From Pseudoxanthomonas japonensis (GTDB lineage Bacteria > Pseudomonadota > Gammaproteobacteria > Xanthomonadales > Xanthomonadaceae): a stretch of 64,000 nucleotides of DNA. Position 1 is the first letter of the stretch; each line of letters starts with the position of its first letter. The stretch is taken from assembly GCF_010093445.1 (NCBI RefSeq), contig NZ_PDWW01000007.1:62001-126000 (forward strand), given 5' to 3'. The notes beneath the pieces were generated by a model that was not told where the DNA came from, ran no database searches, and was given only the letters and a program-made list of their open reading frames with translations. Of this stretch, positions 43,889-50,535 are shown in pieces. Position numbers and translations under genes: made by a program.

Positions 43889-44674
43889 TCAGACGTTGTT
43901 GTTGAGGTAACCGAGCATGGAGTCGGTGGTGGAGATGGCCTTGGCGTTCATTTCGTAGGCGCGCTGGGTTTCGATCATGCTGACCAGCTCTTCCACCACG
44001 TTGACGTTGGAGCCTTCCAGCGAACCCTGCACGACGCTGCCGAGGCCGTTGAGGCCGGGCGTGCCGTTCTGCGCGGGACCGGACGCGGTGGTCTCGACGT
44101 AGAGGTTCTCGCCCTTGGCCTGCAGGCCGGACGGATTGACGAAGTCGGTGAGCGTCAGCGAGCCGATCTCCAGCGCCTGTGCCTGGCCGGCCATCGTCAC
44201 GCTGACGGTGCCGTCGTTGCCGATGGTCAGCGACTGCGCGCCTTCCGGCACCTGGATGCCGGGTTGCACGGGGTAGCCGCTGTTGGTGACCAGTTCGCCC
44301 TGCGCGTTGATCTGGAACGAGCCATCGCGCGTGTAGGCGGGCGAGCCGTCGGGCAGCAGCACTTCGAAGAAGCCGCGGCCGTTGACCATGACGTCGAGCG
44401 AGCGGCCGGTCTGCTGCGGGTTGCCCTGCTGGAAGTCCTTGGAGGTCGACACGACGCGCACGCCGGTGCCGAGCTGCAGGCCGGATGGCAACTGGGTCTG
44501 CGACGAGGTGGAGCCGCCGGGCTGGCGGACCTGCTGGTACAGGAGGTCTTCGAAGCTGGCGCGGTCGCGCTTGAAGCCGGTGGTGTTGGTGTTCGCCAGG
44601 TTGTTGGAGACCACGGACATGCGCGTCTGTTGCGCATCCAGTCCGGTCTTGGCGACCCAGAGGGCCTGGTTCAT
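43889..44674 (-). CDS. flgG: Flagellar distal-rod protein FlgG
   Basis: Distal rod subunit. 261 aa, the standard length. N-terminus [20 protein letters not shown] and [16 protein letters not shown] (rod/hook family signature), C-terminus [20 protein letters not shown] and [18 protein letters not shown] at 44674; the open frame reaches to 44740 but those 22 codons are arginine-rich and not part of the family. A sigma-54-type site lies about 60-75 bp upstream and a 760-bp palindromic element separates it from flgF. Confidence 0.96.
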
Positions 44675-44735
44675 GGCGGGGTTCCTCGCGGATGGAAGGG
44701 CGGAAGCGCGCGATGCGGTTCCTCGCCTCCTCTCA

Positions 44736-44751
44736 GGCAAGTCCTGTGCCG
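44736..44751 (-). promoter_or_regulatory. flgG: Putative sigma-54 promoter of flgG
   Basis: On the minus strand cGGCACaggacTTGC: GGCAC and TTGC with the proper 5-nt spacer. Predicted start near 44726, about 50 bp before the flgG ATG. It lies between the palindromic element and flgG. Confidence 0.5.
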
Positions 44752-44869
44752 GAACGGGTGTCGTGGTTCTGGCGCTGGTGTTTCGGCCGAAGTGCGACCT
44801 TAATCATGGCCCGTGGCCGGTACCGGCATTTTTCTGACGGGATGCCTGCTCAAGCCCCTCTCCCTGCAC

Positions 44870-45636
44870 CTGAGCCCCTCTCCCTGCGGGAGAGGGGTTG
44901 GGGAGAGGGCCAACGAAGTCCAATGCCCTCGATCCGCCCGTCGTCGGCACCACATCCGCCACGGGCTCTGCTTTTGCTGGCCTTGCGGGAGGCGCCTTCC
45001 ACGTATTGAACATGGCGCCGCTCGCCGCGGGGGCCTTCTTTCTTTGCTTGTGCAAAGAAAGAAGCAAAGAAACACACCCCAGGCGGCACGCCCTCCGCGC
45101 TGCGCGCTCCGGGTTCGCGAGCTGGCCGGGAATTTTCGTAAGGCACATCCATGTGCCATACGAAAACGCCGTCATCCCTGACGGCGCCCTTCGGTTTGTA
45201 CCCGGCCCACTCGCCGTGCCTCATGGGGACCCGGAAAGCGTGAGCAACAGCGAAAGCGGCTCTTGGGCCCCCTGAGGTCCGGCAGTCACGGCGGGTAAAA
45301 CCCCGCAGGGGCGGCGCACAGGACGTGCGCCGTTTTCGGCCAGGGCAGGATGCCCTGTCCGAAAATTCCCGCCGGGACTGCGCACCCGCCGCGCAGCGGC
45401 GGGCGGACCGCCGGGGTGTGCTTTCTTTGCCTACTTTCTTTGCACAAGCAAAGAAAGTAGGGCCCCCGCGGCGAGCGGCACCATGCGTGAGAAAGAAGAT
45501 CCATCCCGCAAGGCCATCGAACTGGAAGGTTCGCCGCGGACGTGATGACCGCCAATGGTGGCCTGGAGACATGGTCTCCGTTGCCCCTCACCCCAACCCC
45601 TCTCCCAGCGGGAGAGGGCTCAAGAATCAAGAAGCA
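44870..45636. repeat. Giant imperfect palindrome (about 760 bp) inserted between flgF and flgG
   Basis: Left and right halves are reverse complements over almost the whole length, with axis near 45250. Examples: ctggccttgcggga at about 44977 and tcccgcaaggcca at about 45507; gccgctcgccgcgggggcc at about 45018 and the inverse ggcccccgcggcgagcggca at about 45461; ttctttgcttgtgcaaagaa near 45040 and ttctttgcacaagcaaagaa near 45438; gggaattttcg at about 45129 and cgaaaattccc at about 45360; gggagaggggttgggg at both outer ends. Frames such as 44850-45572 minus are a by-product. This fills the 962-bp gap. Confidence 0.85.
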
Positions 45637-46389
45637 TCAGCCGCCGAGGCGCAGCAACTGGTTCGACGACTGCGCCATCTCGTCGCCGCTGCGGATCACC
45701 TTCACCTGCATCTCGAACTGACGCTGCAACTGGATCATCTGCACCAGCGCACCGGCCGCATCCACGTTGCTGCCTTCCAGCACGCCCATCGTCAGGCTGT
45801 TGCCGTTGGCCACCGGCAACGCCGGCGCCTGCGGATCCGACGGACGCATCAGGCCATCGCCCCCGCGGGCGAGCTGCGACTGCGCGGCTTCCACGATGCG
45901 CATGCGGCCGACCACGGCCATCGTCTGCGGGCCTTCGCCCTGCGGGATGATCGAGACCGTGCCGTCGGCGCCGATGTCGATCGACTGCGCGGGTGGCACC
46001 GCGATCGGGTTGCCGTTGTCGTCCAGCACCGCGCGACCACCCGCGGTGACCAGCTGGCCGTTCGGGGTGACGCTCAACTCGCCGTTGCGCGTATACGCCG
46101 TACCGCCATCGGCGGCCTGCACGGCCATCCAGCGGTTCGGCTGCAGCGAGATGTCGAGCGAACGCCCGGTGACCATCTGCGAACCGGTGCGGCCATCGAA
46201 ACCGGGATCGATCAGCACCGCGTCGACGCGCGAGGGAAAGCCCTGGCCCTGGATCTTGAACGCCTCGGTGCCGGCCAGTGCGGCCTTGAAGCCCTTGGTG
46301 TCCACGTTGGCCAGGTTGTGCGACACGGTGCCCTGCGCCTGCAGTGAAGCGCGGGCGCCGGTCATCGCGACGTAAAGGGCTTTGTCCAT
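45637..46389 (-). CDS. flgF: Flagellar proximal-rod protein FlgF
   Basis: Proximal rod subunit. 250 aa from ATG 46389 (MDKALYVAMTGARASLQAQG). Rod signature HNLANVDTKGFKAA, C-terminal LEGSNVDAAGALVQMIQLQR and QFEMQVKVIRSGDEMAQSSN. Length is the family's. The stop is immediately followed by the palindromic element, so read-through into flgG must cross it. Upstream is a 113-bp gap to flgE containing another imperfect palindrome. Confidence 0.94.
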   Translation of the reverse strand: MDKALYVAMTGARASLQAQGTVSHNLANVDTKGFKAALAGTEAFKIQGQGFPSRVDAVLIDPGFDGRTGSQMVTGRSLDISLQPNRWMAVQAADGGTAYTRNGELSVTPNGQLVTAGGRAVLDDNGNPIAVPPAQSIDIGADGTVSIIPQGEGPQTMAVVGRMRIVEAAQSQLARGGDGLMRPSDPQAPALPVANGNSLTMGVLEGSNVDAAGALVQMIQLQRQFEMQVKVIRSGDEMAQSSNQLLRLGG

Positions 46390-46408
46390 GAGGCGAGTCC
46401 TGAGTGCA

Positions 46409-46500
46409 GAGAAGTGAGGGGTGAGTAGAGGCGTAGGCGGTGCGGGAGCGGAGAGCATCATTCGCTCCCCGCACTCCTCACTCCTTTCCGATCACTTCTG
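46409..46500. repeat. Imperfect palindrome between flgE and flgF
   Basis: Outer arms gcagagaagtgaggggtgag and ctcactcctttccgatcacttctgc (right) plus inner arms gtgcgggagcg and cgctccccgcac form a hairpin with bulges. Possible repeat or mRNA processing hairpin. Confidence 0.55.
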
Positions 46501-48888: not shown

Positions 48889-49275
48889 TTACTGGCCGGT
48901 GATCGCGGTGAGCATGGTGCGCACCTTGGATTCGATGAAGCTGAGCGAGGCGCGGTATTCCAGCGCCGCGCGGCCGTAGGCGGCGCGCTCGGTGTCGGCG
49001 TCGACGGTGTTGCCGTCCAGGCTGGGTTGCACGCCGTCGCGCTCGAAGATGCGCGGCGAGGCGTTGAGCAGCGTCATGTGCTGCTCGTTCGTGCTCTGCA
49101 GCGGTGCGGCCTTGGCGGCGGCCTGTTCCAGTGCGGCCTGGAAGTCCAGGTCCTTCGCCTTGAAGTTGGGCGTGTCGGCGTTGGACAGGTTGCTGGCGAT
49201 CAGCTGCATCCGCTGCTCACGCAACGGCAGTGCCGCGGCGTGGACACCGAGGTAGTTGGAGATGGGATTGGACAT
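48889..49275 (-). CDS. flgB: Flagellar proximal-rod protein FlgB
   Basis: First rod subunit, 128 aa. N-terminus LGVHAAALPLREQRMQLIAS and NLSNADTPNFKAKDLDF; C-terminus EYRASLSFIESKVRTMLTAI. ATG 49275 with GGAG 7 nt before. A consensus sigma-54 site lies about 34-49 bp upstream, so this gene opens the operon flgBCDE(F...). Confidence 0.95.
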   Translation of the reverse strand: MSNPISNYLGVHAAALPLREQRMQLIASNLSNADTPNFKAKDLDFQAALEQAAAKAAPLQSTNEQHMTLLNASPRIFERDGVQPSLDGNTVDADTERAAYGRAALEYRASLSFIESKVRTMLTAITGQ

Positions 49276-49308
49276 GGCACCGCTCCGGCAGACCGTTGCC
49301 GGGGCAGC

Positions 49309-49324
49309 TGCAAGGCGTGTGCCA
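49309..49324 (-). promoter_or_regulatory. flgB: Sigma-54 promoter of flgB operon
   Basis: Minus strand TGGCACacgccTTGCA, full match to the TGGCAC-N5-TTGC consensus. Predicted start about 24 bp before the flgB ATG. Confidence 0.85.
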
Positions 49325-49362
49325 GAACGTGCGGTCTGCCTCGTCCCGGGGATGCCGGTTCC

Positions 49363-49455
49363 TCGTCATCCCAGCGAACGCTGGGATCCATCTTGATGTT
49401 GCCCTGCGCCTTGCCGAGGCCAGAAGCAACATGGGTCCCAGCGTGCGCTGGGACG
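49363..49455. repeat. Interspersed palindromic repeat (cgtcatcccagcgaacgctg family)
   Basis: tcatcccagcgaacgctggg at the left and cccagcgtgcgctgggacga at the right, with tgttgc-type inner sequence, form an imperfect inverted repeat of roughly 30-bp arms. Confidence 0.8.
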
Positions 49456-49495
49456 ACGCTTCCGGCTCTCCAGGCCCCACGTCAGCCCGACTCAG

Positions 49496-49579
49496 CCGTA
49501 GCGTCGAGCTTGCTCGACTGCTTTGCCGGCAGGCCTCCAACCAGGTTCCAACGGCAGCGGAGCAAGCTCCGCTCTACGC
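49496..49579. repeat. REP-type repeat pair
   Basis: cgtagcgtcgagcttgctcg at 49498 and the inverted agcggagcaagctccgctct ending at about 49576. Fills the rest of the 306-bp flgB-cheV gap; no gene seen there. Confidence 0.7.
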
Positions 49580-49581
49580 CA

Positions 49582-50535
49582 TCAGGCCGCCATTCTTGCC
49601 GACACCACCTGGTTCAGCCGGAACAGCACGTGTTCCGCCAGCTCGTGCGGGCTGTACTTGGCCACGAAGGCGTTGGCGCCGACCCGTTCGACCATGGCGT
49701 TGTTGAACACGCCCGACAGCGACGTGTGCAGCAGCACGTACAGGCCGGCAAGCCCCGGATGGCGACGGATTTCCGTCGTCAGCGTGTAGCCGTCCATGGC
49801 CGGCATCTCGATGTCGGAGATGACCATGGCGTAGCGCTCGGCCGGATTCTCGCCGGCCGCGTGCACCTGCAAGAGATGGTCCAGTGCCTGCCGGCCGTCC
49901 GAGAGCAGGGTGGCGGTGACGCCCAGCTGCTCCAGCACGCTGCGGATCTGCGAGCGCGCGACACGGGAGTCGTCCACCACCAGCACCTGCATCGGCGGGG
50001 CATCGGCGGGCAGCGCCATCTCCGGCGCGAGGGTGGCGTCCATGCGCGACTGGCAGATATCGGCCAGCACGCTCTCCACGTCGATCACCTGGATCAGTTC
50101 GCCCTGGAAACGCGTTACCGCGGTCAGGAAGCTGTTTTCCGCACCCAGTTCCGGCGGCGGGTGGATGTCCTCGACCGCGATGTTGACGATGCGCTCCACG
50201 CCGCTGACCAGGAAGCCCTGGACCGAGCGGTTGAACTCGGTGACGACCAGGTAGTTGGGTGCGTTCTCGGGGTTCGGGTCGCGCTCGGGGTGGCGGATGC
50301 TCAGGCCCAGGTCGAGCACCGGCACCGACCGTCCGCGAACGTCGGCCACGCCGACGAATTCGGTGGGCAGGCCGGGCAGCTGGAACAGCGACGGCCGGCG
50401 CAGGACTTCCTGCACCTTGAAGACGTTGACGCCAAAAAGCTGACGCCCACCCAGGCGGAACAGCAGCAGGGCGAGGCGGTTGTGGCCGGCCAGGCGGGTG
50501 CGCTGGTCGATGCGGTTGAGCAGGTCCTGGGTCAT
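49582..50535 (-). CDS. cheV: Chemotaxis protein CheV (CheW-REC)
   Basis: Couples receptors to CheA and can be phosphorylated. 317 aa. The CheW domain (residues about 15-165: LALLLFRLGGRQLFGVNVFK, VADVRGRSVPVLDLG) is followed by a REC domain (VLVVDDSRVARSQI, acceptor Asp in AMVISDIEMPAMDGYTL, Lys in AFVAKYSPHELAEH). Start ATG 50535 gives the expected MTQDLLNRIDQRTRLAGHNR. A sigma-28 site ends only 7 bp before the ATG, so the mRNA appears leaderless. Confidence 0.93.
   Translation of the reverse strand: MTQDLLNRIDQRTRLAGHNRLALLLFRLGGRQLFGVNVFKVQEVLRRPSLFQLPGLPTEFVGVADVRGRSVPVLDLGLSIRHPERDPNPENAPNYLVVTEFNRSVQGFLVSGVERIVNIAVEDIHPPPELGAENSFLTAVTRFQGELIQVIDVESVLADICQSRMDATLAPEMALPADAPPMQVLVVDDSRVARSQIRSVLEQLGVTATLLSDGRQALDHLLQVHAAGENPAERYAMVISDIEMPAMDGYTLTTEIRRHPGLAGLYVLLHTSLSGVFNNAMVERVGANAFVAKYSPHELAEHVLFRLNQVVSARMAA

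Follow-up and report, generated by a model that had tools for sequence, protein, structure and literature searches.

The described repeats that come closest in layout to the element reported here are the REP sequences, together with their dimers (REPINs) and arrays (BIMEs). The REP families used for comparison are tagged by GTAG or CGTC (PMC3733652). Like these repeats, the element found between flgF and flgG of Pseudoxanthomonas japonensis is palindromic, dispersed and intergenic, and its units occur mostly as inverted dimers, both head to head and tail to tail, and rarely as direct pairs. In contrast to REP sequences of 20 to 40 bp, however, its unit is about 195 bp long and contains several hairpins, no invariant GTAG or CGTC tag was noticed in it, and the units lie away from the two Y1 transposase genes of the P. 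japonensis genome. The R-family repeats of Pseudomonas fluorescens, described as intergenic sequences of 50 to 352 bp, several with inverted-repeat ends (PMC2718517), share the intergenic location and the inverted-repeat ends in a comparison made by description, not by sequence. In Xanthomonas, GGGAATC quadruplex repeats have been reported, and a figure legend of that study lists flgF among the genes associated with repeats (PMC4692102). Repeats of this type occupy the flgF-flgG spacer of three of the Pseudoxanthomonas species examined here (G015, G001 and G022), where GGGAATC-type heptamers are found instead of the palindrome; unlike the unit, to which they are unrelated in sequence, they are simple heptamers.

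The other relevant system is the Rfam family TwoAYGGAY (RF01731), in which a closing stem surrounds two hairpins that bear GGA loops. It is tabled as a probable RNA of gamma-Proteobacteria, Clostridiales and the human gut (PMC2864571), and Gardner and Eldai proposed that TwoAYGGAY, and likewise Bacillaceae-1 in its reverse complement, would bind CsrA (PMC4333381). The same arrangement is present on the bottom strand of our unit, in which stem P3 encloses hairpins H4 and H5. The motif nevertheless corresponds only to the core of a unit of about 195 bp that also has hairpins H1 and H2 and usually occurs in inverted pairs; moreover, the units of our locus score below the Rfam cut-off and their main hairpins covary exclusively by Watson-Crick changes. 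No description of the unit was found in the open-access literature searched, subscription papers and supplements being outside the scope of the search. The composite is REPIN-like in layout, related to TwoAYGGAY in its core and probably maintained as DNA. With a probability of roughly 0.6, we interpret it as an inverted dimer of a dispersed DNA repeat of about 195 bp, made of H1 and a cloverleaf, that would be maintained as DNA, spread in trans, homogenised between copies, able to flip, and a passenger at flgF-flgG.

Anatomy of the flgF-flgG palindrome

The window, i.e., the whole stretch of 64,000 nucleotides that was analysed, carries the element between flgG (43889-44674, minus strand) and flgF (45637-46461, minus strand, conserved start at 46389), whose stop codon borders it. 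The name flgF is that of the preliminary description of this DNA and fits the flg gene order. With the element, the spacer measures about 965 bp. The preliminary description had reported a giant imperfect palindrome with an axis near 45250. The palindrome is real: BLASTN of the stretch 44870-45636 against the window yielded a plus/minus self-match of 44871-45622, the two strands agreeing in 70.7% of 778 columns (E 9.9e-69), with the axis near 45246, and the sequence blocks quoted from it were found. Local alignment of one half to the other gave a score of 217, compared with a mean of 23.7 and a maximum of 56 for 500 random stretches of the window, none of them touching 44000-46500. An earlier set of 200 control stretches had contained a single value of 215, at an unrecorded position that possibly overlapped the element. 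A repeat search resolved the palindrome into nested inverted arms (I1 to I6), the best pair being 45011-45035 and 45461-45485 (96%), and its two arms as a whole are only about 70 to 80% alike. Folded as RNA, its minus strand reached -530 kcal/mol, versus -350 in 20 shuffles (z -22.6); folded as DNA, the first of its two units, unit A, did better than 200 shuffles on both strands (z -10.2 and -10.6).

The element is an inverted dimer of one unit of about 195 bp inside a second, outer hairpin repeat. The outer repeat, of the CCCTCTCCC-GGGAGAGGG type, is present at 44876-44922 on the flgG side and at 45572-45618 on the flgF side, the latter copy being 85% complementary to the former, and about 30 more short copies of it (CCCTCTCCC...GGGAGAGGG type) are found elsewhere in the genome. 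The core composite, which is common to other sites and species, spans 45011-45485 and is delimited by two 25-base terminal inverted arms, the 96% pair at 45011-45035 and 45461-45485. It comprises unit A (45034-45228, plus strand) and, in inverted orientation, unit B (45268-45461, minus strand), which correspond to covariance-model matches at positions 107034-107228 and 107268-107461 of the contig. The two units are separated by a variable, AGCAAC-rich centre spacer of 39 bases (45229-45267). The centre spacer is expanded in genome G027, at the site named S6 below, where a long CAACAG-type repeat separates the two units.

Each unit has H1, of the general form TTTCTTTGC-TTGT-GCAAAGAAA. The bases 3' of H1 are variable (GTAAC, GTAGG or GTGAC), and the layout continues with a single-stranded CAAAGAAA...CACACCCC segment, the GC-rich H2, and P3, the closing stem, which encloses H4, H5 and a small H6. 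In unit A, H1 is located at 45035-45064 (CTTCTTTCTTTGC TTGT GCAAAGAAAGAAG) and H4 at 45133-45166, with the loop CATCCATG on the plus strand and GGA on the opposite strand, and H5 at 45167-45186, all three in plus orientation. The hairpins of unit B are in minus orientation, at 45430-45461 (H1), 45333-45365 (H4) and 45312-45332 (H5). Altogether, 89 GGA hairpins were counted in 43 units; some H5 loops are devoid of GGA (CATCG, which reads CGA). Several units, in seven of the stretches collected, carry a REP-like hairpin of the GCCGAATGGCTGGTCAAG type as an insertion within H1 or next to it, and units with such insertions were left out of the seed alignment of the covariance model.

The preliminary description had regarded the element as non-coding, in agreement with our data. 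The lengths of the cores fall into all three classes modulo 3, a frame without any stop exists in 19 of 49 cores, and six ORFs that were scanned have no match in Pfam or NCBIfam. The possibility of a protein-coding element was thus ruled out by the frame and length pattern of the cores together with the lack of family matches. The string FFACAKK, which that description had linked to proteins called from such repeats in many Xanthomonadaceae genomes, is H1 translated in one frame; no strings of the FFACAKK or hairpin type were found in the open-access literature searched.

Distribution, exchange and orientation of the copies

Among the 38 genomes of the genus that were searched, flgF is present in 28. 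The flgF-flgG spacer contains the core in 15 of them, where it measures 754 to 1022 bp, and the 15 carriers are all the species of one Pseudoxanthomonas clade. The other 13 flgFG genomes examined provide syntenic loci without the element, in which the spacer is 30 to 285 bp long. Related copies occur elsewhere in the same genome, and 86 of the 198 family genomes compared have them as well. A covariance model built from 43 units and used at E 1e-4 per genome gave seven unit matches in the genome of P. japonensis, corresponding to three composites and one further unit. It matched 84 of 149 genomes of the family and, at the level of the class, 66 of 274 genomes (58 of 222 genera); as 9 or 17 candidates were scored per genome, the unit copy numbers are lower bounds. 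A genome-wide search for exact patterns returned 40 stretches, 39 from Pseudoxanthomonas and one from Xanthomonas. Of 73 neighbouring unit pairs no more than 600 bp apart in the loci collected, 63 are inverted, H1 lying on the outside in 46 and on the inside in 17, and 10 are direct. One stretch (L294) harbors several units within 1.7 kb in mostly alternating orientation, as a BIME-like array.

The composite is also present at about six more shared sites. By their flanks, the 56 core copies that reached 150 bp grouped into six clusters, which became seven sites when the two flg sites were split by position. This census, from which copies shorter than 150 bp were dropped, is a lower bound, being based on 41 stretches that cover part of the copies listed; from a further set, copies shorter than 420 bp were dropped. 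Units occupy site S6, next to recQ, in 8 of the 15 clade species. Five others lack the element there, G013 has nothing but a solo outer hairpin, its edges being the same, and a rearrangement in G016 precludes comparison. At site S7, between rnk and tal, units are found in five clade species, a collapsed remnant in P. japonensis itself, and a plain spacer of 113 to 116 bp in nine species. In the two collapse cases, the outer hairpin remains alone (S6 in G013) or the core has been lost between the terminal arms (S7 in P. japonensis); the element may thus collapse at its short palindromes.

The copies evolve in concert. Across 49 cores, identity between copies of the same genome was 0.8985, versus 0.8799 when genome labels were shuffled within sites, a value reached in 0 of 2000 shuffles. 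Copies at the same site were 0.8831 identical, versus 0.8797 with site labels shuffled within genomes (8 of 2000 shuffles reached it). This excess is small but above chance, indicating that some orthology has been retained. The nearest neighbour of a core came from the same genome in 16 cases, from the same site in 12, and from neither in 21. The orientation of the flgFG copy, taken from whichever strand scored higher with the core model, deviates in 5 of the 15 species, which amounts to four changes on a 15-species tree with several weakly supported nodes. Shuffled orientation labels required 4.4 changes on average, and 511 of 1000 shuffles needed as few as observed, showing that orientation at this site (S1) carries no phylogenetic signal. 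Copies therefore seem to recombine and to flip in place. The flips might occur because the palindrome can pair either way round, and ectopic recombination between copies would homogenise older, persisting ones. These fixed loci in one clade would make it possible to trace how long palindromes undergo ectopic conversion and inversion.

Related copies are dispersed, as the earlier suggestion of a mobile, non-autonomous element would have it, but the copies examined sit at old shared sites, and no evidence of recent mobility was found among them. Spread may have taken place in trans, in the manner of a REP dimer or REPIN. The inverted ends, the multiple intergenic copies and the existence of both filled and empty sites would also be expected of a classical MITE, whose terminal inverted repeats are moved by a cut-and-paste transposase and which would have spread independently into hotspots such as flgF-flgG. 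We consider this very unlikely, given that half copies, reversed pairs and unit arrays occur, that no cognate transposase was found, and that no target-site duplication was seen by eye at S6 and S7, where empty and filled alleles could not be aligned up to the junction.

Candidate mobilisers were sought among the neighbours of the repeat. Neither of the two Y1 transposase genes of the P. japonensis genome has a unit within 1.5 kb (0 of 2), and RAYT mobilisation in this genome was therefore rejected. Both of these RAYT-like genes (stretches L234 and L235) are flanked by other short palindromic repeats. In four stretches with widely spaced units, inspection by eye of the few intervening ORFs revealed no mobilising enzyme, and none of the genes there fitted an autonomous partner. 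A phage or plasmid origin was also dismissed: a phage collection gave no match, viral contigs gave no match to one exact pattern, and plasmids gave only short hairpin matches, in six records and over at most 14% of the query.

Base pairing and the relationship to TwoAYGGAY

The predicted structure of the unit is strongly supported by covariation. In the 43 units, 95.0% of cells are paired, versus 82.0% after shuffling, and 292 cells show double changes, versus 91; 0 of 500 shuffles reached either value. Double changes affect 30 of the 48 pairs, and when partners were slid along, at most 52.6% of cells remained paired. The main hairpins covary by Watson-Crick changes only. Thus, the H1, H4 and H5 stems of the 43 units, loop-closing pairs excluded, contain 1221 Watson-Crick, 2 G-U and 8 A-C cells. 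Of 96 matches aligned to the model, the 17 weakest were dropped; counted in the same way, the other 79 contain 2031, 4 and 17, respectively, and 39 of these 79 come from outside the family. SRP RNA, the only control RNA, was likewise found by covariance model; its 24 loci in the class, 6 of 30 having been dropped by length, gave 546 Watson-Crick, 130 G-U (19.2%) and 6 A-C cells. Stem P3 is looser, with 86.4% paired cells (478 Watson-Crick, 4 G-U, 24 A-C and 52 other), and one column of H2 is an invariant G-T. For the entire 48-pair fold, the counts are 1900 Watson-Crick, 58 G-U (3.0%) and 33 A-C in the 43 units, where one invariant column contributes 43 of the G-U cells and a loop-closing pair 8, and 3545, 155 (4.2%) and 62 in all 96 matches; both G-U shares are much lower than that of SRP RNA. 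A first wobble count, made on a 66-pair structure, had given 29 G-U and 54 A-C.

Since the hairpin stems exchange partners almost without G-U, we read the structure as one that is kept, or corrected, as DNA, and the data favour this over maintenance as RNA. It might be selected or maintained as folded DNA, in single-stranded hairpins exposed in replication, recombination or transposition. Quasi-palindrome mutagenesis is an established process in which template switching corrects stems. The element could be a mere by-product of it, quasi-palindromes being converted to perfect short hairpins with neither function nor mobility, and double changes restricted to Watson-Crick pairs are the trace that such correction should leave. 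However, stem correction does not account for the conservation between genera of the loops, of the single-stranded CAAAGAAA...CACACCCC segment and of the junction layout, and the arms of the palindrome are still far from identical, at about 70 to 80%. We thus hold a purely mutational origin to be quite unlikely.

Searches with the Rfam model link the unit to TwoAYGGAY. The two units of a pair identified at the level of the class (L280) exceeded the RF01731 cut-off of 43 bits, with scores of 55.8 and 54.9, in both cases on the opposite strand relative to the model. RF01731 was found in 17 of the 274 genomes of the class, in 13 of them above the cut-off; 11 of the 17 have unit matches and 6 have none at the threshold used. 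At least 16 of the 77 RF01731 rows overlap unit matches among those listed, all on the opposite strand. The window has no RF01731 match up to E 1 and the P. japonensis genome has none at E 0.001. A relationship of the unit to TwoAYGGAY is shown by these overlaps and scores.

The GGA loops raise the question of whether the unit is, or bears the sites of, a CsrA/RsmA-binding RNA. The bottom-strand loops of H4 and H5 would titrate RsmA when transcribed, and an inverted pair would give two GGA hairpins on either strand. The optimal CsrA ligand obtained by SELEX is RUACARGGAUGU. The presence of several GGA hairpin loops is as in CsrA/RsmA-binding RNAs, and the relative of the unit is filed as an RNA in Rfam, RF01731 belonging to clan CL00106, that of RsmW and RsmV. 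In addition, distant units coincide with RF01731, and Bacillaceae-1 scores 26.7 on unit B of the window (cut-off 35). An RNA should nevertheless tolerate G-U pairs, which are almost absent from the hairpin stems as opposed to 19% in SRP RNA. They are also absent from 34 GGA hairpins of 22 RF01731 loci (259 Watson-Crick, 0 G-U, 2 A-C), although these hairpins were picked for at least 6 Watson-Crick pairs out of 8, a rule that favours such pairs. Given also that H5 loops lack GGA in some units and that the element of the window is under the Rfam cut-off, an RsmA-binding role appears unlikely, and we retain maintenance as DNA as the preferred interpretation.

A broader proposal is possible, and we advance it tentatively. 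Instead of being RNAs, TwoAYGGAY and its relatives might represent the folded core of a cloverleaf-forming, inverted-dimer DNA element that is widespread in gammaproteobacteria, recognised as single-stranded DNA by some enzyme and now fixed in Pseudoxanthomonas at palindromic loci that exchange sequence and flip. If so, what is catalogued as a candidate RNA would need to be reinterpreted as belonging to a DNA repeat that moves or recombines, and a simple count of G-U pairs could serve as a general test of whether a family found in RNA searches is a structured RNA or a structured DNA repeat.

The element in the flg operon

The preliminary description had proposed that the element uncouples the early and late halves of the flg operon, and with them flgF from flgG. 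A predicted sigma-54-type promoter motif (CCGGCACAGGACTTGC; 44737-44752, minus strand) precedes flgG. All 15 genomes that carry the element, and 9 of the 13 that lack it, have a corresponding GGCAC-N5-TTGC motif 69 to 127 bases ahead of the last base of the flgG start codon; one of the nine is G026, where it reads GTGC. As the motif is present in the absence of the element, separate transcription of flgF and flgG does not require the latter, and the proposed uncoupling is not supported. The pairing pattern likewise speaks against selection at the RNA level for the long hairpin that had been predicted in any flgF-flgG transcript. The element is most likely a tolerated passenger at this site, lying 3' of flgF and 5' of the putative promoter of flgG itself, and not a regulator. 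The flgF-flgG spacer seems to attract different structured repeats. Elsewhere in the window, the region 49217-49706 beside flgB contains open frames reading SSQRTLG and VIPANAGIH, which we take to resemble another repeat of this bacterial group.
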